Both the position numbers and the translations under genes were made by a program. From Taxawa tesnikishii (nom. ined.) (lineage: Eukaryota; Ascomycota; Dothideomycetes; Dothideales), in NCBI GenBank assembly GCA_030247885.1, contig JAPDRO010000021.1, forward strand, positions 593,276 to 657,275: a stretch of DNA of 64,000 nt, read 5' to 3'. The notes beneath the pieces are model-generated. The model did not search any database. It was not told where the DNA came from and saw nothing but the letters and a program-made list of their open reading frames with translations. Shown one piece after another: positions 22,946 through 64,000 of this stretch (its first letter is position 1; the number at the start of each line of letters is the position of its first letter).

Positions 22946-22984
22946 TAATTAAGTAGTAAGCTATTATAAACTCGGGCTTATAAC

Positions 22985-23152
22985 TAGTTAAACTAAGTAC
23001 TTAATTATAACCGAATATATAGTAAAACTAATTATAACTTATTAATTAATTAAACTATTTATAATAGTAGCTAAGAAATAAAGAAATTTCCTACTTAACT
23101 TAATAAGTTATATAACTATCTATTCGGACTAAGTAGCTATTATCTTATAATA
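22985..23152 (-). repeat. 5' LTR of the copia element
   Basis: Partner of the 17661-17828 repeat, same orientation and length. Confidence 0.85.
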
Positions 23153-23445
23153 AATATAAAAGTTATAATTTAGTAATATAATTAATCTTAATCTTAATAT
23201 ATAATATATTAATAATTAAAGTTTATATTTTAATTTAATTTTTAAGGAAATATTTCTTATAAGAACTTTATATAAAATAAAACATAAATTTTACTTATAA
23301 TAATTATAACTAAGTAGTTATAATTAATTCTAGTTATCTTACTATACTTTTTATTAGAAACTATATATACTTTAATTAAGTATAAATTATTATCTTAGTT
23401 TTTATTTAATTATTACTTTAGTAGCCTATTAAGTTACTAGACTAG

Positions 23446-40878: not shown

Positions 40879-41944
40879 ATATATCTTTATTTAAGATATT
40901 ATACTTTTCTTTATCTTTTTAACTAGTTTAAACTAAAGCGTTATAATACGTACGTCTTTATTTAAGGCTTACTAATAATTATATAAACGACTACGTTAAA
41001 GCTTAACTTTCTTAGTACGCGTCTTAAACCTATCTACTTAGTACTTACTAATAGGCCCTTTACTATACGTAGCTAGTAGATTATTAGCTATTTCTTTTAC
41101 TATAGTCTTTATAATACTTATTTCTTATAAGTTTAACTCAGTATATATACTACTATTACTTCCTTCTTTATCTTTTATAACTTCTTTAAGTTAAACTTAT
41201 AGTCGCGTTATATAAGCTTTTATTACGTCGTTATTTTAGAGTTATTTAAAGGACGTTAAATACCTTAAATACGTATCTTTAACTATTAAGAAGAGTTACT
41301 TAAGTAGCCTTAATAATAAGATATAATATACTTTTATTATAAGTTAATTATACGTTACGTTATAAAGGTATTATTATAATAGTTTATAATAGTCGTAATA
41401 TTAGTAAGAGTAGACTACTTAGTAATAGTAGACTACTTAGTAATAAAATACGTTATAAATTATACTACTATATTTATAAGCTTTATATTAATAAGTTACT
41501 AGTACTAGCTACTATTAACCTTACTTAAAGGTTTATAACTAAAATAATACTATTTATATTAAAGTCTTTCTTACTTAACCCTCGAATTAAGTTAATAATA
41601 TTACTATTAACGTAAACTATAAGGAAGCTAACTAAGTAGAAAAGTTAACTACTTAAACGTAACCCTTTTATCTTTAAATATTCTTACTATTAACTATTAT
41701 AATAGGGAGGAAAGGTAGTAGTAATAAGTAGCTATTTCTAGTTCTTATTCTTATAATAAATCCCTTGCTATTATCCTCCGAAAGGTAGATATAAGGAGTA
41801 GAGTTACATAATATAAAGTTACGTAGTAGTACTTAGCTATTTAAGTAATAGTAAGGAAGCGAAGGCTACTTTACTATATACCTCCCTACTCCTTATAGTA
41901 CTTATCCCTTAAGTAATTTATTAAATAGGCTTATTAAACTACTT

Positions 41945-42016
41945 ATTAAATAACTCGTTAAATAACTCGCTAAATAACTCGCTAAATAACTTACTAAAAA
42001 CTTACTAAATAACTCT
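41945..42016. repeat. 12-bp tandem repeat, six copies
   Basis: Units of the form CTAAATAACTCG, head to tail, with small changes, inside the RIP block. Confidence 0.8.
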
Positions 42017-42084
42017 TAAGCTCTTAAGTTATTATATAGCTTTAAGCTATATAAAGTTCTTAGTAAGAATAATAATAAATAGCC

Positions 42085-42560
42085 CTTAGTAGTAATATAA
42101 CTTTTAGTCTAATAGTCTATTTTAATATAATAGCTAATAGTTAACTTAATTACTAGTAGCTAGTCTAATCTAGTAAGTAGTAGCTATTAGTTAGTTTAAT
42201 ATAGTAGTTAATAGCTAATCTAGTATAGTAGTTAATAACTAGTCTAACGATTAATAGCTTATTTAGTAATTAATAACTAGTCTAGTAGTTATTTTAATAT
42301 AGTAACTATTTTAGTAGTTAGTAACTAGTTTAGTATAATACTTAATAGCTAATATAGTAAGTAATAGCTAGTTTACTAATAATAGCTAATTTAGCGATTA
42401 ATAGCTAGTTTAGTAATTAATAGCTAGTATAGTAAATAATAGCTAGTTTAATAACTAATAGTTAGTCTAGCAAATAATAGTTAGTCTAGTAATTAATAGC
42501 TAGTCTAGTTTAGTAATAATAGTTAGTTTAATAATAAACGCTAGTCTAATAATAAGTAAC
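42085..42560. repeat. Minisatellite of about 20 bp (TAGTCTAGTAATTAATAGC type)
   Basis: Some twenty degenerate units of TAGTYTAGTAATTAATAGC repeat over about 475 bases. Many differences are C/T or G/A, as expected if a uniform array was mutated by RIP. Confidence 0.8.
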
Positions 42561-45049
42561 TAGTTAATTTTAGTAATATTAAATAACTCTTTTACCCCTA
42601 CGTTACGAAATCCTAATAAGTAGATTAGCGCGTTATAGTACTAATTTACTCTCTAGTACTTAATCTACTAATCCTTATATCTTAGATTTACGTATTAAAT
42701 CTACGATATATACTTCGATCTATAGTATCTATAGTTCCTAGTATAACTATTAATATCGCCTATAATAATCCTAATAGAATACTTAATATAATCCTAAGGT
42801 ACGAGTCCTTTAGTCCTATTAGGATTTCTAGTAGAGTTACGAGGTATAAACCTAGTAAGTATACTATTACTATAGTTACTATTAGATCTTCCGTACTATG
42901 CGTACAAATTAGTATAAGTATAAGAGATAACATAGTCGTATTATACGCTATTATAGAAATACTTTATCTACTTAGGTTCCTTACTAGGCTTATCTAGCTA
43001 GGCTCTTACTTATATATTTATTATATTAAAAGTCTTCTTAATTACGCTCTATAACGCGCTATTAAGTAGTTTGTCCTTTAAAACCGTTCTATCTTAACTA
43101 ATTATAGGTACTAATATCTCCTCGTTCTCTCTATTATATATATTATAGTACTATATATATAGGCTACTTACGTTTCTAATTACGCGAGTAACCTTAGGCT
43201 TAATATTCTTTTAGAACTTACTCGAAGACGTAACTTAGTAAAAGAATACTTTTTCGCTAATCTTATTTATCTTTACCTTAATAGCCTTTAGTATAAATAT
43301 AGTAAGGGATAATAACTTACTACTTATAAGTATAGATAGTATATATAAACTAATACGCTAGCGCTTAGGGCTCCTATTACTAGCGTTTATAGTACTACTA
43401 ACTTAAGCGATAACTATAAGGAGTAATAACTAAGAGGATATAATAGTTATAGTAAGCGATAATAATTATCGAACGTTTCTATTAATACCTTCGTTACTAC
43501 TACGAAGCTCTAAACTAGATATATCTATAATATATTAAATTATATTAAAAAGGAATAAGAGTATAGTTTACCTTCTTCGCTAAAGTCTAGTCTAGTAAAG
43601 TTATTGCTAAAGATATAGCGCTATTAAGGAGCAACGTATTACTTAATCTTATTATTAACTACGCTAAGCTATTTGCGCGCCTAATATATTATAATAGTAA
43701 GGATACGCTCGTAGTAAAGAGGCCTATTCTCGCGTTACTATATATCTTAGTATTTATTATATATACGCTATATAGTCTTACTACTTAGTATTTTCTACTT
43801 TAGCTTATACGTTATATTAGTCTCTAGTATACTAGTTATTTATAAGTTAATAATATACTCTATAGTTACTACTAAATAGAATAGTATATATAGTATTATA
43901 TCCTAGAAGAATTTACTAGTATCCTCTCGGCCTATAAGGCTACGACGTTTATAATAGACTTTACTTATAATCTCGATAAATATCTTACTTAGGAAACGTT
44001 TCGCCTATTTAGTTATTTAGTACTTAGCGTAATAATGTTAGTATAAGTATTATAATAGTACCTCGTCGCTATCTTAGTAAAGGAAAGCTCTTACCTTTCC
44101 TTTCTTATATACTTATTACTTAAGGTAATTAGTATTATAAGACATATATTTACTAGTAGTATTTCGATTAATATAAGCGTTTATCTCTCTATAAGTAATA
44201 GTAAAGTAGTTATTACGAGCTATTCTTATAAATTTGCGTATTTAGATTTACGTTAATACTTCGAGGATAGCTAGGAATATTATATACTTTAAAAACTACG
44301 GCCCTATATAGGGCGCGTAGTACTTTCGTCTCTAAGTTAACTTCTTACTCGATAAACTAGACGTCTCTCTATATATCCTAAATAAGTTTATCTATCTAGT
44401 ATTCGTTTTAAGATACTAAGTAAAATCTAGGGTATATTATTTCTTAAAAGAAAGTATAACCCTCGAAGTAAAAATAGATATAATACAAAGCTTAACTACT
44501 TCGTAAACCCGAAATATAACTAGAGGTAATAGTAGCTTACTTCGACTAATAATTTATTTAAGGTCTTTTCTTTCTTAATAAAAGAGTACTAAAGGTTATA
44601 TCGTTTATATTCCCTAGTACTCCTCTAGCTCTTAGTAGCTTCGCTTAATATTATAAGATACTCGAATAAGACTTAAGTAATTAGAATTATAAATAAACAT
44701 AGCTTCTATTTAAACTAGGTTATAGTTAATACTATCTAATCCTTAGGATAGCTTAGTAGTACTATAATATATAAGAGATCTAATAATATATACTAAAGAT
44801 AAATAACGTATTAAATAAATAGTTAGTAAAGTTCTACTAAGATATTAGAATATAATATAATAAAACGAACGCGTTAATATAGTTAGGTTAAATAAAAAGA
44901 AAGAGAAAGTTTTATACGTATAAACGCGTCTTAATACTTCCTTTAGCAATTTATAATAGTCCGAGCTATTTACGTAACTCTTAGTAGCTATACTAATAGC
45001 GGCCTTAGTAGCTTCTTTAAGACTTACCTTATTAGTAATCCTAGTAGTA

Positions 45050-45480
45050 CTCCTAGTAGTAATTCTAGTAGTAATTCTAGTAGACTTTCTAGTAGCTTTC
45101 TAAGAATCGCCCTATTAGTAATCCTAGTAGTAATCCTAGTAGTACTCTAGTAGACTCTCTAGCGACTTTCTAAGAATTGCCCTATTAGTAATCCTAGTAG
45201 TACTCTTAGTAGTAATCCTAATAGTAATCCTAGTAAACTCTTTAGTAACTTTCTAAGAATTACCCTATTAGTACTCCTAGTAGTACTCCTAGTAGACTCT
45301 CTAGTAACTTTCTAAGAATCGCCTTATTAGTACTCCTAGTAGTACTCTTAGTAGACTCTCTAGTAGCTTTTTAAGAGTCGCCCTATTAGTAATCCTAGTA
45401 GTAATCTTAGTAGTATTCTTAGTAGACTCTTTAGTAGCTTTTTAAAAGTTACCTTATTAGTAATCTTAGTAGTTAGTATT
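45050..45480. repeat. Compound minisatellite, six units of 60-80 bp
   Basis: A CGCCCTATTAGTAATCCTAG-type core recurs at about 45108, 45178, 45261, 45321, 45380 and 45449. Each unit contains variable numbers of a 9-12 bp CCTAGTAGT subunit followed by AGCTTTCTAAGAAT. Whether it was once coding cannot be told. Confidence 0.8.
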
Positions 45481-47033
45481 AATAAAGTAGTATTACCTTC
45501 TCGACTATTATCTAGTTATAATACTTATTTATATAGTAGAACTCGTATAACTACCTTAGTTAAGTTACTATAACTATTACTATTAAAGTAAGTATTATAG
45601 TAAGTATAAGCTAATATGCCTTAAAATAAGTAATTTAGTAGACTATCTTATATAAAGAGACTATAAGTATTATACGCTCTATAGTTATATCCGCAAGTAC
45701 CGCTACCTTAAAGGTAGTAAATAATTACAATAAAAGGTAATTTAAGACTTACTCTTTATTAGTATTATATATCGAGTATACTTAAAACTTACTATACGAA
45801 ACTTTAAGCTCTTTCCTTATAAATATCGAATCGAAATAAGTCTTTCCTAATTACCTTAATCGTTAATTATAGCGAGCCTTTTATCTTCTTAATTTAATTC
45901 GATATAATCCGAGGCGCTATTTAACTCTTACTTTATAGTTAGTAATTTAACTAAGCGTAATAAGAGTAGATTCTTTAGAGCGTAATAATACCTTATTACT
46001 TTTACTTTAACTCTTATAATCTCGTACGTAAAGCTAATAGCCTTAAACGAACTACTCTTAAGCGTAACTTATATAAGCTTTATAGTTAGGATATAATAGT
46101 ATCTTTTCTTACTATTTCTACTCTTTATCTTTACGCTTTTAGTTTTAGCTTTATTTCCGTCCTTATTACTAGCGCTACTAGTAGCTAGGCTAGTTATAGC
46201 GCGACTTATACTAGAGATTAATTTAGCGTTATTATAAGTAACTTTACGCTTATAGCTACGTTACTTAAGGTTTACGTTAATTTAATATATTAACTTCTAA
46301 AACGACTCTTTTCTATTATTTATCTATATAAATTATATAGTATTGCGGAATTAGTATATTATATTATATTACTTTAGGACTATAATAAAGATCTTAACCT
46401 TAACGTAGTTTTATATTTCGATTATTACGAAACTCTTTCTAGTAAGACGTAACGCTACGAAGATTCTCTTAATAAAAGTATAGAAGTTATAGTATCTCTA
46501 GTCGCTTAACTATAGGTTTTATTTAATTATTTACGTAACTAATTAACTATTATTTTTACTAGTATTCTTTAACTTATAAGTTAAAGCTATAGTCACATTA
46601 GAGGAATATCTTTATAAGAGTATACGTAGGTATTAAGTAGAAGCTTAGTTAGTTTTCTTTAACTTATAAGGCCTTCGGAATTAGCTATATACGCCGTCTA
46701 GTTACTACTTATATATTCCTCTTATTTAAATAGTAGATATTCCTTAATGTCTTATTTATATTCTTTATACCTTTATAATCTAATTATCTTATTAACTTCG
46801 TAGAAGATAGTCCTTATAGGCTACGCTAGTATATATAGGAACTACTATTAGTACTTTACTTTAACTTTATCGATAGTATAGACTTAACCCTTTATTTACC
46901 TACATAAAAGGCTTTTCTTATCGTATTAATTAGTAGTCTAATACTAGTAATTTCTATAGAGTAGTACTCTTCTTCTTTTCCTTTATTATATTATATATAT
47001 AGTTAGGTAGTAAAGTAAGGTATAATTATAGTA

Positions 47034-47250
47034 GGCCTTATTAATCTTTCCTTTATATTTTATATACTTATTCGTTTATATCCCCTCCTTACTTTTATAC
47101 CTTAATAAACTTCCTAGTAGGATTACTAGTAGGGCCTTATTAATCTTTCCTTTATATCTTATATACTCGTTTATTTATATTTCTTTTCTACTTTTATACT
47201 CTAATAAATATCCTAGTAGGATTACTAGTAGGGCTTACTTACTCCTTCGT
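47034..47250. repeat. Two-copy tandem repeat of about 115 bp
   Basis: The segment from CCTTATTAATCTTTCCTTTA to GGATTACTAGTAGGG occurs twice in tandem with mainly transition differences. Confidence 0.7.
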
Positions 47251-47599
47251 TTATACTTTATAAACTTATTCCTTTACTTTTATTTTATATTTCCTTACTA
47301 ATAAAGTCTTCTATCTAGTTATTACCTTTCCTTCTTCCGACTATATTTATATACTTATCCTTTACTACTACTTATCTTATTCGCTTTACTCCTTTATTAA
47401 CTTAGTACTTAATAGTTACCGCGTCTTACGCTACGTTTTCTTAAGCCTTTCGGATTTATATTAGTATAGAGACTCCGTTTATATTATACGTTACGCGTTA
47501 GTTAATAACGCTATCTTTAGCTACTATTATAATATTACTTTCTCGTCCTTTTACGCTCGTATAAGTCGTCTCTATATATATACTAATTACTTCGTATTA

Positions 47600-47715
47600 C
47601 TACCTTCTTATTACGCGCGTTATTATCTTCTTATTACGCGCATTATTACCTTCTATAATACGCGCGTTACTATCTTCTTATTACGCGCGTTACTACTTCT
47701 ATAATACGCGCGACG
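47600..47715. repeat. Minisatellite with ACGCGCGT core
   Basis: Five units of TTCTTATTACGCGCGTTATT type, about 23 bases each. The CG-rich core survives inside a RIP block, consistent with RIP sparing CG. Confidence 0.8.
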
Positions 47716-50700
47716 TAGACTTATACCTTACTACTAGTTCTTCTTTATTTCCTTATTTAGCGCTAAATTTAGTCGCTATCTTATATAGTCGTTCTTATAG
47801 ACTCTCTTTTACTAGTTCGAGGTATTTTTTCCTTCCTACTTACTTATATTATATTTTAACTTATTACGTAGAACGATTATTTATCTTAGTTATTATAGTA
47901 GGCTATTAAAATTACGCTCTTTCTTTTACTAGTCCGAGGTATTTCTTCCTTCTACTTATATATATACTCGTATTAGATTTTAACTTACTACGTAGAACGA
48001 TTATTTTACTTCCGCGCTATTACTATAAGTATACTTACTAATTCTACTATATCCTTCGTACTACTACTTTCTAACTTAAATCCTTTAGCCGATTTTAATA
48101 AGTATAATTCCTTTATATAAATAAAGAACTTACTCTAGTATTTTCTCGCGACTAAGGGCCCGGGTAAGTCTAAAGAAGTACTATAAAGGGATTCGTATAC
48201 GCTACTTTAAGCGTAAACGAAGCTAACTAGTAAATTCTTAAGGATATAGTTATAAGTTATCTAAGGAATTTTAAATACCTTCGTAAAGGCCTTTTAAAGA
48301 TACTTATAATTAAGCGCGAATACTTTAGTATTTAGAATAACTTTCTTAACGAAGTAAAAGGCTAGGCTATTTAGGAATTACTTTAAAAGAAGTCTTAAGA
48401 GAAGTTACTTTAACTCTAGTACTACTCGGACTTATTTTATAAAAGTAAAAACGACGCGAACCTTATTAAGATAGTTATATAGTATCTTCTTTAAATATAC
48501 GTATAAGACGTAAAGTACGAGAATAAAAGCGATAGTAAGGGTAAATATAACTAGAATATTAAAAGTAGAAAAAGAGTACGTTTAACGTTATAATTAAGAG
48601 TACGTTTATCGTTACGCTTAGAGCGTTTATAGAGCTAAATACGTAGTAGTATATATAGTACTATATTATCTACTAGTATAACCGATAATCTCGACGATAT
48701 AATTATTAGTAGCTTAACGTTAAAGAAAGATCTTAGTAATATACTTCTTATATTCGTCTAAGTTAACTCTATCTACTCTAATATAAATATACTTATTAGT
48801 TTATCTATAGTTATACCTTTACGCCTCGGTACTATTTATAATACTAATAAGGGCGTATATAAGCAACCTTTTCTATAAGTTAACTTAGCGCTATTCTAGG
48901 AGCGTTTCGCTACTAGTAGTCTAAGAGCTTATTACTTATATTTAGTAATAAGTAACGCGCGAATTTTAGTAGTTTAACTTAACTATTAATTCTAAAGCGG
49001 ACGTAAATAAAGCTAAATTAACTAGCTTACTATATAATAGTATACTCTAGGAAGTATACTAAAATGCCCTAGTTAATATTAAATAGCTCTAGATATTTAT
49101 TATACGCGATCTCGACTATATTCGACTAATCCCTAAGTCCGAGCTCTATAGATAAAAAGCTATCTTAAATAAGCGTACCCTAGAAGACGAATAAATATAC
49201 TCTAGAGAATATAAAGGTAGTAAAACTATTTACGAAGATCGAGCGTTAACTAGTACTATTACTACTTCCTATAAAGCCGACGCGTTATTTTACTATTAAG
49301 TTTATAATAATAGAGAATAATAGTTTAATATTAGAAAGTAATAATCTATTTAAGCTAGACGTTCCTCCTAGTCCGAAAAACTCCTATTAACTAGAAGATA
49401 ACTACGTTACTATAAAGAGAGTTACTTTTAAAGAAAACAAAAAGAGCTAAATAATAAGGTAAATAATAAGGCTTATAAGAAGGCTATATACTTAACTATA
49501 AAGTTTTTTAGTTAATTAAAAGTAATACTTACGAACCTAGCTCCTCGATAGAGTAAAAGCCGTCTATTACTCTTAATAGTAATTAGATAATATATAAGTA
49601 GCTATCGAGTAGTAATATCGAGGGCTTAAACTTTATTAATAGAAATAATAAAAGCGTAGCTACTAATTTCTAGGCTCTAATATTAAGAGATTATAGTTTC
49701 GAATATAAGGAACTTACTCTTTAGTAAGCTACGTATTACTTCTTTAATAGCGATTTAGATAACCTTAACTTTATATCTAGTATTTTTTATAAGAGCTAAA
49801 ATAAGAAGAACTTCTTATTATCTTACTAGTTTTACTTTACAAGCTAGGCTTTAAAGGAAATACTTTCTAGTAGCCTCGTAGTTTATAATACTTATAATAT
49901 AGGCCTTAATAAAACTTATATCGCTATCGCGTGGCTCTAGGTATTTATATAGATAGTAAAGGAGTTAAGACGTCCTTTAGACGTTAAAGTATACTCGAGT
50001 AACTACTTTAACTCTAAGATACTACTTACTTCGTACGACTAGCTTAAAGACATTTAGCCGTAACTCGAAGTAGGCCTAAGCCTAATAGTTATTATAAATA
50101 AGTTATTCTTAACGTAAATTAATAATATTCGTAAATTTGTTAGGAATAAAATTAAGATTATACTTACTAGTCTAAAGATAATAAAGAGGGACTAAGCCTT
50201 CTTTACTAAGGAGAAAATATATTACTTTATAGATACTATTATTTAACTTAAAAGTATATACTATCTAAGCTAAAAGTAGCTAGAACTAAGGTATACGTAG
50301 TAGGAACTTAATATTCCTAAACCCTTTCTAGTTAGAAATTTACTTAAATGTAACCTTATTAAAGATAGCGAGGAAGATAATAAAGGAAATATAAACGGCA
50401 TATAAAACGGCCTCTCGCTATAGTTTAATAGTTATTTAAAATAAGTCGTACTTACGACTTTAAAAAACTCGTAAGTAATATTTATCTTACTAACTATTAC
50501 TTTAAGGATAAGAAATATAATAAGTAGTTTAGTAAAGTTACTTACGAAAACATAAGTAATAAGAAGCGAAAGATAATAATACGCGTTTTAGTATAAGAAA
50601 ACTCTATTAATACCTTATTTACGCGCGTAATTGTAAATAAGTTTTACAAATATATTAGCGTATTTAAGAGCGTTTAGTTAAATCTAGGCCTACTTTTAGG

Positions 50701-51867
50701 TACTCCGTAGTTTATGTTCGTTAGTAAAACGTTATTTAATAAGGTTACTTCGATTATAAGCTTATACTTCGCCTTTAAAGCCTAGTACTTTAACCTTAGA
50801 AATCCTAGAAAGCGTATTATTAGAAACTAGACTTAAAGCTTTTCGTATTAAGTAGTAAAAGTCGCTAGTAATAAAACGAATCTTAGTAGTAAGTAATATA
50901 ACTTAAATAAAATCGAGTTAAACGCTTAGAAGTAAAGCTAACTTACTTATATTAAATAGCGCCTATTAAGAGTTAACTTCCTATAACTTATAACTACTAT
51001 TAATATAGTTATAAAGAGTAGGGTAAGGTTAGTGCTACCTTACTTAGAAAGATAAGAGACGCTAGAGGCGAGGGTAACAATAAGGAAGACTAAATAAATA
51101 TTAGTAAACTTAGTAAAGAAAGTCTCGAATAAGTCTAGATTCTTAATAAAGTACTATAAGCTAAGACTATTAAGTATAACGTTAACTATCGATAGCTTCT
51201 AAATGTTAAGACTTACTTACGTAAAGAGGGTATAAGAGCTATACTAATACTACTATATTTAATCTTCGACTATATAATTAGAATTCTAAAGAGAGAAATA
51301 AATTATTTAATACTTACTTAGTAGAAGGTCCTTATTAATACGCTTAAGAAAGGTATAAGAAAGTCTAGTTTTAATATATATAACTTTATAATTACTTATT
51401 ACTATTTCCGCGTCCTTATAGTTTTACCTTACTTTAAGAAACTCGAAAACTAATAAAGCTATATATACGAAATTAGTAGAAGGTATAATAGTTAAGATAG
51501 CGCCGACACTTTTAAAGGATCTTTAAAGTACTATTCTCTAGTAATATATAGTAGAGATTAACGCTACGCTTATAATATAAAAGCTTTGCGAAATCCTTAA
51601 GAAGATATAAGCTTAAAATAACTTTACTAGCTAGTTCTTACGTAAGGTTATAATTAGTTCGTTCTTACCCTTTACTATTACTATAGTTAAGATATAAATA
51701 ATATAGTTACTCGAATAAAGGCTAATAGTAACGCTCTTACCTAGAACTTCCTTAACTTTACTAATTTCTTAAAGGACATTAGGTTCGTTAATTTCTAAAC
51801 TAGTAATAAGCTCTAGGTAATTAACGACTTTAAGGGTACTAGTAACGAAGAGTATAAGGACGAGTCG

Positions 51868-52150
51868 GGAGCCTTATTAGCTATTATAAGCTAAATTAGT
51901 AGTAAAATAAATCTAGTTTCTAGTAACTATATTATCTTACTAGACTTTAACTAGACTATATAGAATATATTGTAACTTATCTATCGAGTAAGATGCGCTA
52001 AGATAACGTAAAAGGCAAAGATTATAAAGTACTATTATATTATTTATAACTCTAAGTAAATCCGGATTTAGAGATAAATAAACGATCGTATTATAAGCGC
52101 TAATAAGCTTCGCGCTAAACTAGCTACGTATAATATCGAGGATAAAAAGC
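51868..52150 (+). pseudogene. SNF2-like helicase C-terminal relic
   Basis: In one plus-strand frame: GALLAIIS, SKINLVSSNYIILLDFN, then after stops LIYRVRCAKIT and KAKIIKYYYII. These fit the SNF2 pattern of GLNL..AN.VILLDP.WNP..E.QA..RV.R.GQ..KV..Y in order and spacing if the stops are Gln/Trp codons lost to RIP. Upstream sequence to about 50,500 may belong to the same gene but I could not read its ATPase motifs. It could be an accessory gene carried by a large transposon. Confidence 0.4.
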
Positions 52151-52659: not shown

Positions 52660-52742
52660 ACGTGTTTCACAAGTGAGTCGGCCACCCAAGTGAGTCGGCC
52701 ACCTCACGAAACTAGAACGCTTGCGCAGCAACATTTGCGCAA
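52660..52742 (+). repeat. Left terminal inverted repeat of the pogo/Fot1 element
   Basis: It begins ACGTGTTTCACAAGTGAGTC. The first 53 bases match the right end with two mismatches, and similarity continues to GCGCAA at 52742. It contains a direct repeat of AAGTGAGTCGGCCACC, a likely double transposase-binding site. Confidence 0.9.
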
Positions 52743-52782
52743 CACTACAACACTTTACAGCAGTCTATAGAACAGTATATAA

Positions 52783-54426
52783 TTATTCAGAAACGTCGCT
52801 ATCTTCTGCATCCTCTATTTCTACTTTACAGGTGCGGGAGTTATGCCCAGTCTCGCCGCAACGGCCGCAACGCCGCTCTACGCGCACCCTCTTCGCAGCC
52901 TTCTCGCCGTCATTACCACTGCTACCCTCCTTGGCAGCGACCAGATCAGCTACCTCACCTACTGTTAGAGTCTCCTCTGCCCGTACGTATTGCCTTTTGC
53001 GGCTCTTGCGCTTTGTGGCCGCCTCAATTGCGTCTCGCAGACGCGCTGTTTCTTCGCGCATTAACACCATCTCATGCGCTATCTGCTGAGCGCCCTTGGT
53101 CAGCTGCCTAACCTGCTCATCCAAAGAGCTTGCTGGAGACCCCTGATGTTTTTGCATGCGATTTCGAATTAGCGTTGACTGCGCCTCTATTTCGCTGGCG
53201 TTGCGCGGTGTTTTCGCCTCCCATTCGACTGTACCTGGTGCAGGCGGCGTTGGCGTACGCAGCCTTACATCCAGCTTCGATAACACAGCCTCTGGGTTGT
53301 ATGGGACTAGCCCAGCGCCTCGAAACCCTGCGCAGACATTCTCCTGTGTGAACGCCTTCTTAAAAGCTGCTTTAAAGGCAGTTAGGAAGGTTTCTTTCGT
53401 GATATAGTAAACGCGACTGCGTGCCAAGGCTGAGATCTCGTCGCCATACAGGCGCTTTAGCAGCGAGTAGCAGACGACGTCAAGTGGCTGCAGTAGGTGC
53501 GAGGAGTGTGGAGGCATACAGAGAGCTATAATGTTGTTCTCCTTACAGTAATCCTGGAATTCGACCGAGCAGTGGCTCTCGTGGCCGTCAATAATAAGCA
53601 GCCTATATGCCCCAACAGTATAAGCCTTCGTATGCGCATCGAAGTGCTTAAGCCACGCGAGCGCGAGCTTGTTGTTAGTCCAGCCAGTAGAGGAGACCTC
53701 AACAATCCAGTCACGAGGTAGATCGTTGAACCAGGTTGAGATAAGGACCTTGCCTGCGAAGATGATGAAGGGTGGGATAACGCGCCCCGTAGCCCCGACG
53801 CCTTGTACCAAGGTAACCCACTCGCGATCGCCAGGCTGTAGTTTCTTCTGTTTACCAGGTTTCTCTGAGCCTGTAACAACTAGCTGAGACGATATCTTGC
53901 CCATTAGAAAGCCAGATTCATCAAAGTTGTAGGTGTCCTCATCTGAGATACCATACTTCGCCTTCATTGACTGAACAAGCGCGAACCAGGGCTGGATAAC
54001 CGCCGGATCCTCGCAGGCAGCTCGCTGGCGATCGTACGGACGGCTCCATCGCGTTCGTAGCTCAGGCGTACGCTTAATGAAGTTGTCAACCCAGTTCTTG
54101 CCAACAGGCTTCCCATCACGCTCTCCTAGCAGTTTATCCGCCATATCTCGTATGTTTCCCTTCGAGGGCGGTACGCCACGTAGACTCTCGTCTAGCACAC
54201 GCTGTACTATCACCTCCTCTTCTAGTTTTGTAAGGCGCTTTGATTTCGGCTCGTAGTCGCGTCGAGAGCGCCGTCCAGCGCGTCGGTCTTGCAGCGTTGA
54301 TCGGGGCACAGTATATACTGCTGCAGCGCGTCTCTCGCTTTGAATTTGCTTGGATGTAATATCAGAGATAGCAAGGTATATATCTCCTTCAGTGTAGGTG
54401 TATTGCACGTTGCGTTGTTGAGGCAT
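52783..54426 (-). CDS. pogo/Fot1-type transposase (DDE_1 family), intact
   Basis: 547 residues from ATG 54426; an in-frame GTG further upstream lies inside the inverted repeat and is less likely. It cuts and pastes its own element. Domains: psq-like helix-turn-helix (about 10-55, with TSKQIQSERRAAAVYTVPRS), CENP-B-type DNA-binding region (about 60-130, NWVDNFIKRTPELRTRWSRP), and the DDE_1 catalytic core with D169 (YNFDESGF), D280 (LLIIDGHESH) and D316 (HLLQPLDV), a D-D35-D arrangement typical of Fot1/pogo. There is a C-terminal coiled coil (about 415-465) and a CCHC knuckle CGRCGETGHNSRTC (520-533). No stop or frameshift and all three acidic residues are present, so it may be active. Confidence 0.93.
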   Translation of the reverse strand: MPQQRNVQYTYTEGDIYLAISDITSKQIQSERRAAAVYTVPRSTLQDRRAGRRSRRDYEPKSKRLTKLEEEVIVQRVLDESLRGVPPSKGNIRDMADKLLGERDGKPVGKNWVDNFIKRTPELRTRWSRPYDRQRAACEDPAVIQPWFALVQSMKAKYGISDEDTYNFDESGFLMGKISSQLVVTGSEKPGKQKKLQPGDREWVTLVQGVGATGRVIPPFIIFAGKVLISTWFNDLPRDWIVEVSSTGWTNNKLALAWLKHFDAHTKAYTVGAYRLLIIDGHESHCSVEFQDYCKENNIIALCMPPHSSHLLQPLDVVCYSLLKRLYGDEISALARSRVYYITKETFLTAFKAAFKKAFTQENVCAGFRGAGLVPYNPEAVLSKLDVRLRTPTPPAPGTVEWEAKTPRNASEIEAQSTLIRNRMQKHQGSPASSLDEQVRQLTKGAQQIAHEMVLMREETARLRDAIEAATKRKSRKRQYVRAEETLTVGEVADLVAAKEGSSGNDGEKAAKRVRVERRCGRCGETGHNSRTCKVEIEDAEDSDVSE

Positions 54427-54507
54427 TGCGCAATGTTGCTGCGCAGGTGTTCTAGTTTCGCGAGGTGGCCGACTCACTTGGGTGGCCGACTTACTTGTGA
54501 AACACGT
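54426..54507 (-). repeat. Right terminal inverted repeat of the pogo/Fot1 element
   Basis: Reverse complement of the left repeat, with the same internal AAGTGAGTCGGCCACC duplication (first copy AAGTAAG...). Its inner edge coincides with the transposase start codon. Confidence 0.9.
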
Positions 54508-54509
54508 TA

Positions 54510-57500
54510 TAGCTTATAAAGATAGTAAATATACTAGAACTAATATATAATAGGCCGTATATCTCCTTCCGTACTAGACGCCTTATATACTAATATAGCG
54601 TCTTAAGACCTAATAAACTAGGTAGAGGCGATATTAATACTATAATATACGAGGATACTATATATAACTTAATAAGTAATAAATTACCTTACGAAGATAT
54701 AGGAGAAAGTAATAGTAAATAAACGGAGGAAGACGAGAAGGTTAAAGAAGAGTCTAATAATAATAAAGAATATAACTTAACTAGGGACTTTATAAACTAG
54801 ACGTAAATATTAAAGGCCCTCGACTTATAGCCTAGTAATAGTAGTAATAATAACGATAATATAACTCTTATTAACGAGCGAAAGAAGATAACTAGTAAGG
54901 AAGCGAAAGACGTATATAATACTACGTATAGTATAAGTTTTAACTTAATTTACCTAGGTAGTAGAAGACTATTATTATCGGCGTTAAGTAAGGTACGTAA
55001 TAGTTTTAAAGAAAAGATAACTCTAAAAGTAGGCTCTCGTAAGACGTAGTACGTATAGAATAGAGATTAAATATTAACGTATAGTTAATAGTATCTAGTT
55101 ATAATATATAGGATATAATTAATCTAACGCTACTTAGAAATTTCTAAGACTAGTTCGACTTTAGCTTTACGTAATAAATATACTAAGAAAATATTTCTAA
55201 GAATAGTATTAACTACTTACTTAAGACCCCGGGACTAAAACTCCTACTATAGCGCCTTAATTAAAAGTCGGCTAACTAGCTATAAATAAAGATAGAAAAT
55301 ATACTTATAGTAGCGAATATTAGGTAGTAGTATATAAAGGAAATACGAGTACTAAGTAAGAGTAACCTAACTAGATATATAGCGTATAGTTTATAATATA
55401 GGAATTTAATATAAGTAGTTAAATTCTTCCTAGGCTATATCGGCTTTTAATATAACTTCTACTATAAGTTATACCGCGTATAAATAGACGAGAACTATAA
55501 CTATAGAAGGTATACTAATATACTATCTAGTAATTAGTAGTAAGATATATAAAAATAAGTTAGCTTAACTATACTTAGAGCTACTATTATACTTATTATT
55601 ATCGCAAGTAATAAGACTAAGTTAACGCTTTAATTAGGAGACCTATAAGCTTACGCTATATATATAATAGTTAGTAACCTTAATATAATAACGTAACATT
55701 CGAACGAATAGCCTAGGTTAATATTATTAGTATTACTACTAATAGTTAATAAGAGTAATATAAACTTCAGGAGTAGGATATTCTATTAGTATTTAAAAGA
55801 AGTCTTTAAACTAGTCGTAAATACGTATAAATAAAGAGGAACTAAAATCTCTTATATTAACGGCTAAATAAAGTAATACTTCCTAATAATCGCCGTAATT
55901 ATAACTAATTACGAGGAGTAAGTTAAGCTAATAGGCGTACTTAGTAGTCTATACTATATAATATATAAGATCTATCTTAATTTACGAGAGGATCTTAAAC
56001 TCTTAGTACCCTAGCGAACTAAAGTAAATTCTTAAAATTATATTAAACGTTAGCGACGGACTATTTATATTTATATAAGTCGTAGTAGCCCCTCGGATAT
56101 ATTATTACTAGACGCTAGAGGAGAAGATAAGTAAGAGTCTAATAGTATATTAAAAGACTTAGACTTAAAACTAGACTTAGATAAAAGACTATACGACATT
56201 AACTACTTTATATTTAATATACTAAGTATAGAGATTTACTAATTACTTATAGTCGATATTCTTTACTAGCTTTTAAAGGGCGTTATAATATACGTACTTA
56301 CTTAGACTTAGGCGTTTATATTAGAGTATACGAAGAATAAGAAGGGTACCCAAATATACGAAGTAATAAAAAAGGTAGACGTAGGAAAGAAGTACTAAAA
56401 GGTTACTAATTTCAAAGTAGCTAAAGCTATTATTAAGAATATTATTAATAGGTAATTCGTAGCAATTTCGCCCTTTCTAACGCTTCGTATTTTTAAGAAG
56501 CTATCCGCTATTTCTTAATAGACTAGCGCCGAGCAAAAAAGTATCTTATAGTAAATTATACTAGTATTTATACTATTACTTAAGGAAATTAGTACTACGG
56601 AAGCGAAAGAGGTAATTCGTTTTATACGCGCGATAGTAGATTTTATTACTCTCGCGATATATAATAGTTATAATAAATAAACGCTATATTACTTCGAACT
56701 TACGCTATATAAGATAAATTAATATAAGGAAGTATTTCGAGTATATTATAACTTAAAAGTAAAGAAGATAAACGCTACTTTAACTTCCTTAAGTAGTATA
56801 CCTTAATATACTACGTTTAAATAATTCGCTTATATAGCTACGCGCCTAATTAGAATATAAGCTATCCTAAATATAAGTACTATACTTATATAAAGGAAGA
56901 CTTTCGATAGATAAATAGAAAAGATAAGTAAGAAGATTAGCTAATAAACTATTATTATTATAGCCTAAATATACTCGTACTATAAGATCTTCTTAATAAC
57001 TATAAATAGAAGTCTATAATAGAGACTAGAAAGTAAGTAAAAAGCCTATATTACCTTTTAAGGCCTAGTTTATCGTAGCTATATTTAGCCTTCTTAGACT
57101 ATATTATCGAGTTAAAAAGTATTTATAGTAACTAGTAAGTAAAGTAGTAGAGTACCTAGGTACTAAGGAGGGTAATATTTTCGTTAGGCAATAGCTATTT
57201 TCGTACGTAAGAATAAACTAAAAGAGACAATAATCGCGCCTATAAGCCTAGCGTCTTAAGAAGTAACTAATAACTCGAATAAGATAAAGCTCGATAATAC
57301 GTAGGTAAATAACTATCTTATTTAGCTTTATTACTCTATTAAATGTCGAAAGGAGACTAGTAATAACGCTAGCGACAAGGATATAATAAAGCGAAACTAC
57401 GCGTAATATATCTATAACTAGTAAAAGTCTAGTTAGCTTAAATATAACTAGGTATAAGTATAAGAATATATAGACTTAGTATTAAACGACTATAATATAG

Positions 57501-57740
57501 CTATACTTACGTTTTAGGGACGCCTTTTAGTTTGCCTCCGACTAATTATTACTATAAAGGATATTAGATTTACGCGTCGAAGCTATAAAGAGGCCTATAT
57601 CGACGATAATAATACGGAGAATAGTAAGACTTTATACTATAGTAATATATACGTAAATATTTATATAGCGAAGAGAGTAAATAGTAAGGCGAACGACGAT
57701 TATAAGATAACTATAATTAAGTCTTTAGTAGTATACCTAC
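54510..57740. other. AT-rich RIP block, right part
   Basis: Same dinucleotide signature as the left part; the two were one block before the pogo element inserted. It contains the Plavaka-like relic. It ends abruptly at about 57740, where ordinary composition resumes. Confidence 0.88.
55760..56960 (+). mobile_element. Plavaka-like (CACTA-related) transposase relic
   Basis: Plus-strand fragments in order: KEVFKLVVNTYK then TNYEE-stop-VKLIGVLSSLYYI (family form ADYEEQ..L.G..SGL.CP.C), VDFITLAIYNSYNK-stop-TLYYFE (family DFIYLAQY.SH...TL.YLE.AL), and RYFNFLK-stop-YTLIYYV with NRKD (family HFN.PKLHSL.HY and TNRKEY). This matches the large transposase of fungal Plavaka-type elements as I remember it. 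Stops sit at expected Gln/Trp positions. Element ends not identified; it may have extended left of the pogo insertion. Confidence 0.45.
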
Positions 57741-57750
57741 TCGTAGAAGT

Positions 57751-57853
57751 CAAACGAATGGCCACGATTCGTTTGCTTTTGCGTGGGCTATAACCCTAAG
57801 GGTTAGAGGAACGACCACGATTCGTTTGCACCTGTTGACCACGATTCGTTTGC
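57751..57853. repeat. Three copies of CCACGATTCGTTTGC, the first inside a hairpin
   Basis: CCACGATTCGTTTGC is present at about 57762-57776, 57815-57829 and 57839-57853, same orientation. The first copy pairs with CAAACGAAT at 57751-57759 to form an inverted repeat with a short loop (GGCCACG). It resembles a transposon end or a protein-binding array. Confidence 0.75.
57791..57806. repeat. Head-to-head telomere-repeat palindrome
   Basis: TAACCCTAAGGGTTAG joins one CCCTAA unit to one inverted TTAGGG-phase unit. It is short enough to be chance, but it sits between the CCACGATTCGTTTGC copies at the subtelomere boundary. Confidence 0.5.
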
Positions 57854-58192
57854 CTTCCCGAGCCCCAACCTTCTCGAAACCCACACACTATACTGTCATA
57901 AGGTTATTCTCTCTGCATGCCAAACACCACTCATATATATGCCATATACATGGAACATCAAGGGCGGCGGTCTTAAAAGGAAAAAGATGAGGCGCCTTGT
58001 GCATAGGCCACTCCCGCATTTTCGCAGGGCGGCCTCTCCAAACAAAGACCAGCCCTGTGTCTATGCGACGTGATCAGTACGCTCTAAACAATTGATCCTG
58101 AGCATCACATGGATCCTTTAAATCCTTAGAAGGTAATATAGCTATGTCTGGCCTCGCAAGTATGGCAGCCGTGAAGGCAAGCCAAGACTCAG

Positions 58193-61100
58193 ATGGATGA
58201 TTTTCATCGTCTCTTCCAAGTAGTCGCCCAGCACCGCATCCTTGTTTGCATCCATTGTCAGTATGCAGTCGTACCTTCGCAGCTCGCCAAACATCTTCGT
58301 GTGCATCACAAGCGTCTCAGCTTACAACAACGGCGGGACATTATTGCCAAAGTCGGGTCTTTTACCGAACTTGCGCAAGTCGAGGCAGATGTCATCTATC
58401 CAGCAGCAACAGAGCCTCCCGTAACGGGACTTCCGGTGTACTTCGACGGCGAAGTGTGGCGGGAAAGATGGCGAAGGCAGGCTTTGTCCCTATATATGCC
58501 GCACTCCGCGTGGCATGCAAGATCATTGTGAGCGGCAACACGGCTGGGTCAACGGACAGAAGCGAGGCGGCGATGCTCGTTTGAAGCAGGTCCATACCCA
58601 CAACAAGCTGTGGTCTTGCGACCGCGCCTGTCAGCGTTTCTTCAAGGTCGGAAGCTGGCAGAGGTACTTCGAGGTCAAGTAGCGGACCTGGAGATTTGCG
58701 GTCGGAGGCGAGCCGGTCACCAGCGTGACTTCTTCCGGACGCAAGAAGAAGACATCCTTCAGGCAGAGCGCGACGCCGCATCTGCGGCCAACCGTGTCCG
58801 CGGATTCGACGAGCATCGTTCTACCGTGGTACCATGGCTCAGAGAGACCGGCATCGTCGACCATGTCTGCGGCGAAGAAAGACGAGATCCGAGCAGCGAT
58901 CGCCGTGCCCTCGCGAGACGAAGGATGTCCTCTGCGGACGATCGTCGATGCGATGGAGGACGTGCTCAGGGAGGCGCACGGCTGGTGTTTCGACGGACCC
59001 GACTGTATGCTCACTTGGCCATGTCGCGTCGTTCTCAGTCGGTTCCAGTCGTCGCAGGTCGAGTCGATTGGGAAGGTTCGGCCGTTCGATCCTTACAAGG
59101 AGCCCGGCACGCTCAAGGTCTACTTCAAGCTGGCGTCACAGTTCCTGTCGTACCTGGAGCGAGTGGCGATCTGTGACGAGTACCACTTCAGTGCTGACTC
59201 GGAGGAGACGATCCGGCCAGAGGACGTGATCGAACCGACGGACAAGCAAAGGGTGGTGTGGCATAACCTCCGTCGGTTAGCAGAACGGGGAGCGACGGGC
59301 ACGGGTGAAGGGATCAAGGGCCAACTGAGAGATGGGCTGGTTGAGTTATGGATGCTCGTTATCCGTCACACTACCGGAGCCCGACGGTACCGCTCGCCAA
59401 TAGTGAGCTTCTGCGCGATGCTAAGCATCAAGCCGTCTACGCAAGGCTGGATGGAACCCGGCAACTTCAACAGCAGTCTGTCTGCGATGATATGGGTCGC
59501 GCAGCTGCTGATCTTCTATGACTGTGCTCGCAAAGAGCGGCAGGGTGGGGAGAAACGCTCGCGCTCGTCAAGGAATGCTGTGAGAGTTATCTGCAGCAGA
59601 CGGCCGAGACGCCGATGGGGAGATACTCCGCTGGCGCCTGTTGCTGTTTCGCATCTCGAAGGACAGCGTGGGTGATCATGAGGCCTGTTGGGACGAAAGC
59701 GAACAGGTCCTGACATACGAAGATACAGAGCTGCGTATGGACCAGATCCCCACGCTACTGCTCTCCGAATACCGTGAGTGCGAACGGCTACTGTACGACG
59801 ACTTGCTGCTGGGTCAGAAGGACCTACGCCGCATGCAGTCTTGGGCGCTTAGAGATAGCGGCAACGTCGATACCGTCGGCTGGAGCTTGATCCAGCATCG
59901 TGACAACGCTCTCCTGCTGAGGGGACGGACAAAGCTCTGTTGGCCGCCGTTGAGCGTTCCGAGCAACTGTGCCGCCTTTTCCTTCAGCAAGACCGTCGAT
60001 CAGCGAGCGGCTTCGTTTGGAGGGACAGTGCGCTAGCCGGCTACGAGGCAACTGTGCAGGAGTTCTTGAAACGCTTGTGTCCTCGTTCACATCAGTGGCG
60101 GTCAGCCCATCCGCGAAAGCGAGTTCTTCTCCATGACCTGGCGGAACACGCAACGACGACGATCCATCACACTCCGCCACGATCGTGTCATGATACATGT
60201 CAAATACCACAAAGGTCAGCAGCAGACGGGCAGGTACAAGGAAAACATCCGGTTTCTCGCCAATCCGGTGGGCGACCTGTTGCTGGATTACCTCGTCTAT
60301 GTCGTGCCGCTACGACAGGTCTTTCTGCGGCAGCAATCACCAAAGGCACTGCTCTCCTCGTTCTTGTGGGAGAAAGACGGAAAGGTGTGGGGCGAAGGAC
60401 GGTTGAGTCGTTGTCTGGAGGAAGCCAGTGCTCGGGCGTGCACACCCCGGCTTCACGTTTCCAACTGGCGCCAGATGAGCGTGGCCATCGTCAAGACCAA
60501 GTTTGCGAGCAACATAGGCTGCTTCGAAGTCAACGAAGACGACGAGGACGCCGAGGAGATGGAGGAGGATATCCGAGCGATGACGAGACAGCGCAACCAC
60601 AAGACACGCACGGTCAACAGGGCGTATGCCAATCAGACGGGAGCGACCTTCGGCAACGTGTGGGACGGGCTGATCCGAATGGGACTTCGCGCGTCAACGT
60701 TGTGGCAGGACTTCTGGGAGTGGAGACGATGCTAAAAGGCAAGAAGCGAAAGAGGGACGGAGAAGAGTGTCGACTGAAGGAACGACTTGCCAAGGGTGTC
60801 TATCGGCCCCGCAAACCGTGGTCGGCAGAGGCTCTGCTGGAAGGGCTCAAAAGCTCTACGGCAACCAGAGAATGATGTGGAAATCGAGGGAGCAGGAACA
60901 GACCCTCACCACGATCATGTCGTGGACGGAGCAGGTGGTGGCCATCTTGCCAACCGGAGCCGGAAAGAGCCTGTCCTTCATGTTGCCGTGTACGCTGCCT
61001 GATGCCGGGATCACCATCCTCATCGTGCCGCTCGTATCCCTTCGGGCAGACCTGCTTCGGCGGATACGGGAACTGAACATCGCTCACCTCGAATGGTTGC

Positions 61101-62614
61101 CGGGAGAAAGTCGAGAAGCATCGCTGATAATCGTCAGCGTTGAGGCTGCAGCCACAACACACTTCACGAAATACGCACGAAGCCTGATCGTCCAGCAGAA
61201 ACTCGATCGAATCGTGATCGACGAATGCCACCTGACGGTGACTGCCGTTGACTACCGATCGAGCATCGTCGACCTTACTGCGGTCCGCAATCTCAGGACG
61301 CAGTTTGTCTACCTGACAGCCACACTGCCTCCGTCCATGAAGAGGAGTTTGAGGAGCGCAACTACCTCTACCGTCCGACAACCATCAGAGCATCGAGCAA
61401 CCGACCCAACATATTCTACATGGTCCGCAGGGCAGACCCTCGCAAAGGCAGCCTTCTGGAGCAGAGTGCGGTCGAAGCGCAAGACGCGTGGCGCGACTCC
61501 GACCTGTTCGATCATTCCCGTGACAAGATCGTCCTATACGTCCGAACGTGTGAGGACGCGGACAGCCTGTGCCAACTGCTTGGTTGTGCTGCATACACCG
61601 CAAAGAGCGGAACGCCGGAACAGAAGAAGCTCATCGTTGATCGCTGGATCCATACCTCCGACCGCCCGTATCTCGTTGCCACGACCGCTCTTGCCGAAGG
61701 CTTCGACCACGCTCATGTACGTCTGGTCATGAACGTAGGGGAGCCGGACTCGTTGGTCACCTTCGCGCAGGAGTCGGGTCGGGCCGGCCGCGACGGGATG
61801 GAGGCGTACTCGATGGTTCTCCTGCCGGCGACGTGGCAGGCACAGCTCGAAGACGACGTCGACGTCGGTTCGGAGCAGACGGGCAGCTGCAGGGACGACG
61901 TGTCACTTCGCAAGCGACGGGACAAGCAGGCCGTGCACAAGTACTTACGAGGCGAGCAATGTTTCCGAACTTCGCTGAGCGAACACCTCGATCTCGCTCA
62001 GCACCGAAGGTGGTGCATGCCGGAAGACGTGGCTTGCGACGTCTGCAAAGCGGCTCACGAGGATCAATCGCAGCCTCGGACGCGACAAGACGGCAGACCG
62101 CCCACACCGGACTCGATCTCATCCAGCAAGAGCGGCTGCAGGCTCCTCCGAACTTGTCAACTACCGTCTGGACCTGGCCAGCGTGCGCGGGACATGCTTG
62201 CTCTGCCGTGCGATGGACGAGGAATGGAAGCACGAGTTCTCCAAGTGTGCCCGGCGGCATGAGGTGTTTCACGAGCGCAGTCGAGTACGGCAGCGGCACG
62301 AGACACGCGGACGAAAGTGGTTGCGTCCGTACACGAGCTGCTTCTGGTGCCTAAACCCTCAGTCCATCTGCCAAAGGGCTGAGCTCAGCAAGACCAGTAA
62401 GGAAGAAGCGTGTGAGCACGGAGACGTGGTCCTGCCGCTCTGTTACGGGATATTCGTGAGCGCCGGAGGAGCCAGATGGCTAGAGGACCACTTCCGGCGC
62501 AGATTCGCCGGGGTGGAGGATTTCTTTGACTGGTTGGGAGAGGAGACAAGATTTGGAGGCGGAATGGCGGTACAGGGAGTCAGAGTAGCGGCAAAGGCTT
62601 TATTGTCGTTCTAA
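58193..62614 (+). CDS. Telomere-linked RecQ-type helicase (TLH) with N-terminal zinc-finger region and a recombinase-like middle; about twelve frame breaks
   Basis: TLH genes sit next to fungal telomeres and encode RecQ-like helicases. The start MDDFHRLFQVVAQHRILVCI with GLPVYFDG and CPYICRTPRGMQDHCERQHG resembles the OrsD/DUF3505 zinc-finger domain. Next is a helical middle (RGFDEHRSTVVPWLRETGIV, HGWCFDGPDCMLTWP). The tyrosine-recombinase-like stretch (about 60060-60720) is described separately. The RecQ core has Walker A LPTGAGKS (60947-60970), DECH box (61220-61231), LTATLPPSMK, a second RecA lobe with TTALAEGFDHAHVR, and motif VI QESGRAGRD (61768-61794). A Cys-rich tail follows (CDVCKAAHED, GTCLLCRAMDEEW, SCFWCLNPQ). 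About nine -1 and three +1/-2 frame changes lie near 58457, 58674, 58870, 59553, 59618, 59921, 60085, 60721, 60851, 61341, 62040-62110 and 62157. Catalytic motifs are intact, so assembly error and recent pseudogenisation are both possible. Confidence 0.85.
60060..60720 (+). other. Tyrosine-recombinase-like segment within the telomere-linked helicase
   Basis: ISGGQPIRESEFFSMTWRNT has the shape of recombinase box I (TGLRisEl..L.W.D), with the candidate Arg at 60112-60114. RHDRVMIHVKYHKGQQQTGR followed by hydrophobic residues and LLLDYL fits the beta-hairpin Lys region. LHVSNWRQMSVAIVKTKF resembles box II, with Arg at 60469-60471 but His five residues before it rather than three. NRAYANQTG supplies a late Tyr at 60625-60627. 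The order and approximate spacing fit, while the box II His is off position, so activity is uncertain. Confidence 0.4.
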
Positions 62615-62654
62615 GATAGCGAGGTCAGAGACAACTAATAGCAACGACCTATAA

Positions 62655-62726
62655 GAAAAAACAGAAGAAGTAGTGAAGGAAAAAACAGAAGAAGTAGTGA
62701 AGGAAAAAACAGAAGAAGTAGCGAAG
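62655..62726. repeat. 24-bp tandem repeat, three perfect-length copies
   Basis: Units GAAAAAACAGAAGAAGTAGT plus GAAG at 62655, 62679 and 62703, one C/T difference, just downstream of the helicase stop. Confidence 0.9.
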
Positions 62727-63869
62727 GAAAAAAATAGATAATAGCTTAAGAGGTAAATACGTTAGGTCCTTACTAGCTCCGACAAGCAAGAAAGAGTCCT
62801 AACAAAAAGTAAACGCCTAATAATAAGTTAGTTAGAGTAGTTAAGAAGAAGTCTAATAGATAAGGAAAGTAACTTAGTTAAATAGACTTAAGCTAAGTTA
62901 TAAAGAAGTTAAGAAAGAATCCTAAAGTATAATAAAGTTCTTCTTAAACCTTAGGGATTATATAGGATAATATAGAACTAAGAGTTAGGGTTTAGATAAA
63001 TAAGGGTAAAAAGTAAGTATATAAATGAAGAAGACGATAATCATAGAAAAGCTAAGTTTTAAAGAAAGGAACAATATTTCTCTATATAGGATTTTCAAAA
63101 AAAAAAGGTAATATTTCTCTCTATAACAAGTATAATATTTTAAAGAGAAAAGATATATCTCTTAAGATAAAAAAAGATAAAAGAAAGAAAAAGAAAAACT
63201 AATAGATTTAATAGTAAAGTAAAAGAAATTAAAGTAAAATAGTGGAATATAAAAAGAAAAAGGAGATTAGTTAAGAATAAGAGAAAAAAAGTAAAAGGAA
63301 AGTAAAGTAAGGGAGGATAATATAAAAGAAAAAGAGAGATAATAAAAAGAAAAGGTAATAAAAAGAGAGGAATAAAATAAGTAAGTTAGAAAATAAGAGT
63401 TATAATAAGGAAGGAATAAAGAAAGAAAGTTTAAGTAATAGGGATATAATAATATAGAAATAGAATAAAAGTAAAAAATAGGAAAATAAGAAGAGATAAA
63501 ATAAAAGAAAGAAAAGAAATAAAAGAAAAAAAGTTAAAATAAGAGATTTATAGTAAAAGATAAGGAGTAAAGTAATAGAGATATAGTAATATAAGAATGG
63601 AATAATAAATTAGTAGAGTTAAAGTAATATTTAAAAAGAATAAGAAAGTAATAAAAATATAGTAATAAAGTAATAAAATAATAAAGTAGTAAAGTAGTAA
63701 AGTAATAAAATAATAGAGTAATAAATAGTAGAGTAATAGAATAGTAGAGTAATAGAGTAGTAAAGTAATAAAGTAGTAGAGTAATAAGATATAAGAAGAA
63801 TAAAAGAAGTAGAGATAAAATAGAAAGAAAGAAATAAAGTAGAAAGAGAAAAAAACATTGAAAAAGAGA
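62727..63869. other. Purine-rich, strand-asymmetric subtelomeric collar
   Basis: The plus strand is mostly A and G with some T and almost no C from about 62870 on. Runs of AAAGAAA, GTAATAA and AGAGAAA dominate. No gene is supported: open frames here are low-complexity by-products. The G strand runs towards the telomere, the same polarity as TTAGGG. Confidence 0.75.
63640..63795. repeat. AGTAATAAA / AGTAGTAAA short tandem repeat
   Basis: Repeated AAAGTAATA and AAAGTAGTA units of 8-10 bases over about 155 bases within the collar. Confidence 0.8.
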
Positions 63870-63944
63870 GTGAGTGAGTGAGAGTAAGAATGAGTAAGAA
63901 TAAGAGTGAGTGAGTGAGTGAGTGAGTGAGTGAGCGAGTGAGTG
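63870..63944. repeat. GTGA/GAGT tetranucleotide array next to the telomere
   Basis: Tandem TGAG units, with variants such as TAAGAATGAG and one GCGAG, lead straight into the telomere repeats. Confidence 0.9.
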
Positions 63945-63946
63945 GG

Positions 63947-64000
63947 TTAGGGTTAGGGTTAGGGTTAGGGTTAGGGTTAGGGTTAGGGTTAGGGTTAGGG
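63947..64000 (+). repeat. Telomere: nine perfect TTAGGG repeats to the end of the window
   Basis: Nine uninterrupted TTAGGG units fill the last 54 bases, G-rich strand running 5' to 3' towards the end, which is the correct orientation for a right-hand chromosome end. Confidence 0.98.

Follow-up and report, generated by a model that had tools for sequence, protein, structure and literature searches.

The stretch of DNA analysed here (the window) comprises 64,000 nucleotides of Taxawa tesnikishii at the end of contig JAPDRO010000021.1 (positions 593,276 to 657,275, forward strand; C14 below) and carries a telomere-linked helicase (TLH) gene. The gene belongs to a terminal unit of ∼ 6.3 kb that has one fixed inner end, is joined to the chromosome at differing, non-telomeric points, often inside older repeats, and points outward with the telomere on its outside. 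In the stretch that separates its OrsD zinc-finger region from its RecQ core, TLH has a segment of ∼ 220 residues that resembles a tyrosine recombinase (YR). Our leading explanation, held at even odds, is that the unit is an OrsD-YR-RecQ mobile element, with TLH as its engine, that joins at chromosome ends. The element-level finding is independent of the domain, and raises the interest of an earlier idea, made from the letters of the window (the sequence-only reading), that TLH is a fused integrase-helicase.

The genome searched (29.4 Mb, 34 contigs) holds 51 near-identical TLH copies, 50 of which are oriented outward with a contig end ∼ 6.3 kb away. Thirty of the 51 were fetched and, with one copy on C2, gave the 31 junctions that were read. 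All 30 fetched copies and the C2 copy begin at the same first base, preceded by flanks that differ and are non-telomeric, and the first 35 bp are kept in 51/51 copies. From inner end to contig end the fetched copies measure 6264–6374 bp; copies vary in small variants, tail length and telomere length. The outer side consists of telomere repeats in all 32 copies seen. A search with a degenerate pattern (≤ 3 mismatches) gave no further copies of the terminus beyond the 51, nor any altered by repeat-induced point mutation (RIP). The unit thus has what marks a mobile element, a constant boundary at differing sites (31/31 junctions, 51/51 termini). Neither a second defined end nor a target duplication was found; the outer side passes into telomere repeats. 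Short direct repeats flanking the TLH copies, which the sequence-only reading had proposed to look for, do not occur because the outer side of each copy is telomere; what exists is a single junction that shares CT/CTA.

The one copy away from a contig end, on C2, adjoins telomere repeats and an N gap. An interior site for this copy was considered and rejected, its outer side being telomere repeats followed by the N gap. Telomere repeats beside an N gap inside C2 (L146, 865200–866400) indicate that C2 is a scaffold joining separate chromosome ends. Ten of the contig tips without the main TLH were sampled. Telomere repeats close five of them (C16 left, C22 right, C32 left, C2 right and C27 left), which means that most telomeric ends, but not every one, are capped by the main TLH. 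Family relatives or mutated relics lie nearby at four of these five tips; none was detected at C32 left. At the outer tips of L013 and L019, non-telomeric bases with ACGTAACTGAACGA stand beyond the telomere repeats, presumably nanopore adapter residue.

In the window the unit cuts short an AT-rich, RIP-like repeat that has 17 other near-full-length copies in the genome (88–92% identity), one of which, on C30, extends 496 bp beyond the window break point. Uninterrupted homologues exist for 14 of the 31 junctions, and the flanks stop at different points of the repeats. When the best-matching homologue was counted for each junction, the target continued with CTA in 6/14 cases (background 3.2%; binomial p 2.6e-6) and with CT in 7/14 (background 6.5%; binomial p 1.1e-5). 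CTA is also how the element itself begins. For L019, CT was seen in one of three homologues. At the joins, the target lacks its distal part. An all-against-all comparison of flanks, made with the 30 fetched copies only, revealed no shared break point; L013 and L020 come closest, with breaks ∼ 8 bp from each other in a repeat of 73% identity. A telomere-repeat dimer occurs in just one of the 30 flanks (L034, 534 bp in), which argues that the joins are not into old telomere arrays. As an upstream target consensus, a weak C at −1 (12/30) was all that emerged, and the candidate was dropped.

The inner terminus is rich in repeats, which lie within its first 120 bp (Table 1). Arms as long as those of its perfect inverted repeat arose in 18 of 5000 shuffles. 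The 15-bp direct repeat CCACGATTCGTTTGC has 154 genome matches at ≤ 1 mismatch, or ∼ 3 per copy, against one for a reversed-pattern control. By analogy, the arrangement recalls the core site of a recombinase together with its arm sites, and the near-palindrome of the telomere repeat inside the inner end might bind a telomere protein.

The recombinase-like segment before the RecQ core is confirmed. The frame 60070–60735 (+) is open over 221 aa and holds every residue named by the sequence-only reading, whose interval (60060–61830) covers the domain and also includes most of the helicase core. Pfam gives no convincing match between OrsD and DEAD. The window copy of TLH is spread over several frames and has indels that are absent from the 29 other fetched copies. 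Across all 51 copies, the longest frame holding the segment has 1012 aa; it starts before the segment and extends through the helicase, but is too short for the whole gene. Reading frames were inspected in some of the copies, and the remaining breaks may be introns or sequencing indels.

Six relatives of the segment in the same genome, 19–46% identical to that of TLH, were aligned with it (235 columns with ≥ 5 residues). Nine columns are invariant, four of which are R50, K83, R169 and Y221 (numbered along the TLH segment in the alignment); counted over the members that have a residue at the site, the tallies are R 7/7, K 6/6, R 6/6 and Y 6/6. The sequence-only reading had picked out an Arg, a Lys, an Arg and a Tyr in YR order and had asked for the conservation of the Arg, Arg and Tyr among homologues, and on both counts it was borne out. 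By this alignment, the conservation is more than chance would give. With a His included, the candidates follow the YR order R, K, R, H, Y. A Glu three residues after the box-I Arg is present in 6/7 members, and the His nine residues before the Tyr in 5/6 (Arg in L040). In Cre, whose residue positions we take from PMC12506042, the counterparts are E176 for the Glu and, for the His, W315, the same nine-residue step from Y324.

RecQ lies downstream of the segment in five members (TLH, L039, L040, L042 and L046). For L041 and for L047 with L150 no significant RecQ match was found within the stretch fetched, and the next unit starts soon after; L047 with L150 (C2:1146300–1151000) is an OrsD-YR frame with no significant RecQ match behind it, a helicase-free relative. 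The segment thus seems to occur both with and without a helicase. A second family is represented by a pair of copies on C2, from 850853 and from 1149584, which share 99.9% identity across 3.0 kb; they too start abruptly and have unlike flanks. A diverged OrsD-YR-RecQ member lies on C27, the left tip of which consists of telomere repeats. L148 (C2:783300–785600), which lies upstream of L039, a diverged relative, contains an inverted repeat noticed by eye (GTTATGGCATGAC / GTCATGCCATAAC) as well as the telomere-like CTTAGGGTTA.

A profile of the segment was compared by hhalign with a reference profile of 16 YRs, namely XerD, lambda Int and 14 further integrases taken from phage records (a seventeenth, L142, was dropped as it was not the integrase). 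The score was 20.5 (probability 1.8%, E 0.027), which none of the 399 usable column shuffles out of 400 reached (best 20.2); the reversed profile gave 12.9. In the unguided alignment the box-I Arg, box-II Arg, box-III His and Tyr fall in register with XerD and the phage integrases, with the Lys unpaired. The N-terminal block alone scored 20.3, with 0/399 shuffles as high. Halves of the YR set score 262–286 against each other, far above 20.5. With a score above the shuffles yet far below that of true YR pairs, homology to YRs is likely but remote. No relatives were found in viral contigs, bacterial or archaeal genomes or phage records. The fused integrase-helicase is partly supported: the residues and the register of R, R, H and Y stand, whereas a fold and a significant database match were not obtained. 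The further suggestion, that the domain explains how these genes spread from one chromosome end to another, is independently strengthened by the exact inner terminus; the joining chemistry that we infer is as follows.

We propose that the OrsD zinc fingers and the YR domain recognize the inner-end repeats. The Tyr of the YR would then cut the inner end and join it to a target sharing its first bases (CT/CTA). RecQ-assisted copying to the chromosome terminus would lay down gene, tail and telomere, the old end being replaced. An outer terminus would be unnecessary, as the telomere could serve as one, and exchange between copies may maintain their near-identity.

Several observations weigh against such an element. 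No excised form, transcript or activity was seen, the element being known here from the assembly. L016 and L018 each have one homologue without CTA, and a shared CT/CTA would likewise be compatible with microhomology-mediated end joining. The His of the HxxR motif is absent throughout the family, as the sequence-only reading had noticed for box II; the six members with box II have S, S, L, Q, S and R at this position, TLH itself having Ser three residues before the box-II Arg. The chief rival explanation leaves the joining to host repair and treats the YR-like domain as a relic or as a module that binds DNA. A DNA form with a fixed end, such as a linear fragment from inner end to telomere, would be added to broken chromosome ends, either through end joining at 2–3 bp of microhomology or as a copy made by break-induced replication. 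CT/CTA would then be the microhomology, and the missing distal part of the target and the missing His would be accounted for. Host copying alone, however, leaves the same first base in 31/31 junctions unexplained, so that some factor sets the end, and an invariant R, K, R and Y is unlike a decaying relic. Nor does the missing His imply inactivity, as the sequence-only reading had suggested, since in the YR of the Starship Sanctuary a Tyr replaces the HxxR His (and Ala the Glu), and HhpA is reported to need its aligned Tyr for transposition (PMC12506042). We consider host repair rather improbable, at roughly one chance in four.

The segment itself gives further points of this kind. The absolute profile match is weak, as the probability and E value given above show. 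The C-terminal block alone scored 8.8, which 256/400 shuffles matched, and is not significant; the RecQ part of the same proteins reaches 16.5 against the YR profile. No significant match for the segment was obtained in Pfam, PHROGs or the PDB, and single-sequence AlphaFold2 of the window segment gave no usable fold (pLDDT 33.8). The segment may accordingly be no YR at all: the order of residues would be a coincidence in a linker domain of fungal OrsD-RecQ proteins, and the exact end would be due to something else, for instance to an unrelated activity of this protein as a nuclease or helicase. The low hhalign probability, the empty database searches and the C-terminal block fit this explanation. 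It is harder to reconcile with four candidate catalytic residues among the nine invariant columns, with R, R, H and Y in register although the alignment was unguided, or with a score that exceeds those of all 399 shuffles, of the reversed profile and of two further regions of these proteins (16.5 for the RecQ part and 13.1), and we judge it unlikely, more so than host repair. That the ends were patched or collapsed to one consensus during assembly, so that software made the identical inner edge, is highly improbable. It could be suggested by the near-identity of 6.3 kb across 51 places, by small indels that vary from copy to copy, by the C2 scaffold with an N gap beside one copy and by adapter-like bases at two tips. 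However, the copies are distinguished by small variants and by the lengths of their tails and telomeres, five telomere-capped tips lack the unit, so that not all ends were patched alike, and the junctions show a target base preference.

Cryptons are eukaryotic DNA elements run by a YR, and are interior. The likeness to the unit would lie in the YR-run DNA element; we know of no crypton that carries RecQ, and cryptons are set apart here by their description, not by sequence. Academ transposons are moved by another kind of transposase. They share with the unit a RecQ but, unlike it, are not telomere-linked. Academ transposons with a RecQ helicase are named in PMC3627910. Starship captains (DUF3435 YRs) are similar in being fungal YR-type enzymes without the HxxR His, with a precise element boundary. 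Starships occupy interior positions, are very large and have direct repeats on both flanks (PMC12506042), whereas the unit measures 6.3 kb and is terminal, with a single defined end. No PF11917 match above the cut-off, as expected of a captain, was present in the genome (best 17 bits versus 25.8), and Starship-type direct repeats and an interior empty site are absent, each copy having one junction with telomere on the other side. MoTeRs and FoTeRs are likewise mobile, fungal and at chromosome ends, and FoTeRs often adjoin TLHs (PMC12857005). They are reverse-transcriptase elements within telomere repeats; the unit has a non-telomeric inner flank and no reverse transcriptase.

The fungal TLH or subtelomeric RecQ genes share with the present unit a RecQ-type helicase gene beside the telomere at many ends (51 copies here). 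Reports of TLH genes at fungal telomeres date back to 1998, according to the reference list of PMC7473861, and that paper describes subtelomeric RecQ helicases in which only the helicase core domain, and no other, was found. Compared with known TLHs, the present one adds OrsD and YR-like parts to the protein and lies in a unit whose inner end is exact. No report of a telomere-linked helicase paired with a tyrosine recombinase was found in the literature searched, in which coverage of key TLH papers was limited.

Table 1. Features of the terminal unit and its flank, in window coordinates.
Feature	Position	Strand	Basis or detail
AT-rich repeat (RIP-like), cut short by element	56300..57736	.	repeat copies elsewhere
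Whole terminal unit (∼ 6.3 kb): inner end, gene, purine-rich tail, telomere	57737..64000	+	51 copies
Inner terminus, first bases CTACTCGTAG	57737..57756	+	common start of homology to the base
Perfect 9-7-9 inverted repeat	57751..57775	.	arms 57751–57759, 57767–57775
Three direct copies of CCACGATTCGTTTGC	57762..57853	+	starts 57762, 57815, 57839
Near-palindrome of telomere repeat (AACCCT A AGGGTT)	57788..57808	.	inverted pair
OrsD (PF12013) zinc-finger region	58211..58450	+	Pfam, E 1.4e-16
Tyrosine-recombinase-like segment	60070..60735	+	open frame; residues; alignment; profile match
Box-I Arg (PIRESEF)	codon 60112–60114	+	sequence
Box-I Glu	codon 60121–60123	+	sequence
Lys (YHKGQ)	codon 60211–60213	+	sequence
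Box-II Arg (NWRQM)	codon 60469–60471	+	sequence
His (NHKTR)	codon 60598–60600	+	sequence
Tyr (NRAYAN)	codon 60625–60627	+	sequence
RecQ core, DEAD domain	60890..61342 (approx.)	+	Pfam, E 5.8e-14
RecQ core, Helicase_C	61510..61797	+	Pfam, E 1.4e-11
Purine-rich low-complexity tail, GAGT repeats at its end	62615..63943	+	sequence
Telomere repeats (GGGTTA)n	63944..64000	+	sequence; TTAGGG repeats close contig C14

Elsewhere in the window, the region 52670–54513 contains a 576-aa frame on the minus strand (52783–54513), which resembles a pogo/Tc1-type DDE transposase. At either end of the region a 17-bp unit occurs twice, the two ends being inverted relative to each other (CAAGTGAGTCGGCCACC / GGTGGCCGACTCACTTG). 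Long AT-rich, RIP-like blocks (G+C 24–29%) lie among normal blocks at 18000–24000 and 38000–52000.

What carries TLH genes to many chromosome ends is not settled in the literature searched, and an integrase-like domain together with one exact inner end provides a testable mechanism for their spread. Tentatively, and with less confidence than in the mobile element itself, we suggest that the unit represents an undescribed order of eukaryotic DNA transposons: a YR-RecQ element with a single end that forms telomeres. Its recombinase would join this fixed end to chromosomal DNA at CT/CTA, and copying driven by the helicase would create a new chromosome end complete with telomere; the fungal TLH families would be this element. 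Such an element would connect YR transposons with RecQ helicases and with the repair of telomeres, and would match the telomere retroelements with a counterpart made of DNA only. If this is true, the element both parasitizes and rebuilds chromosome ends.

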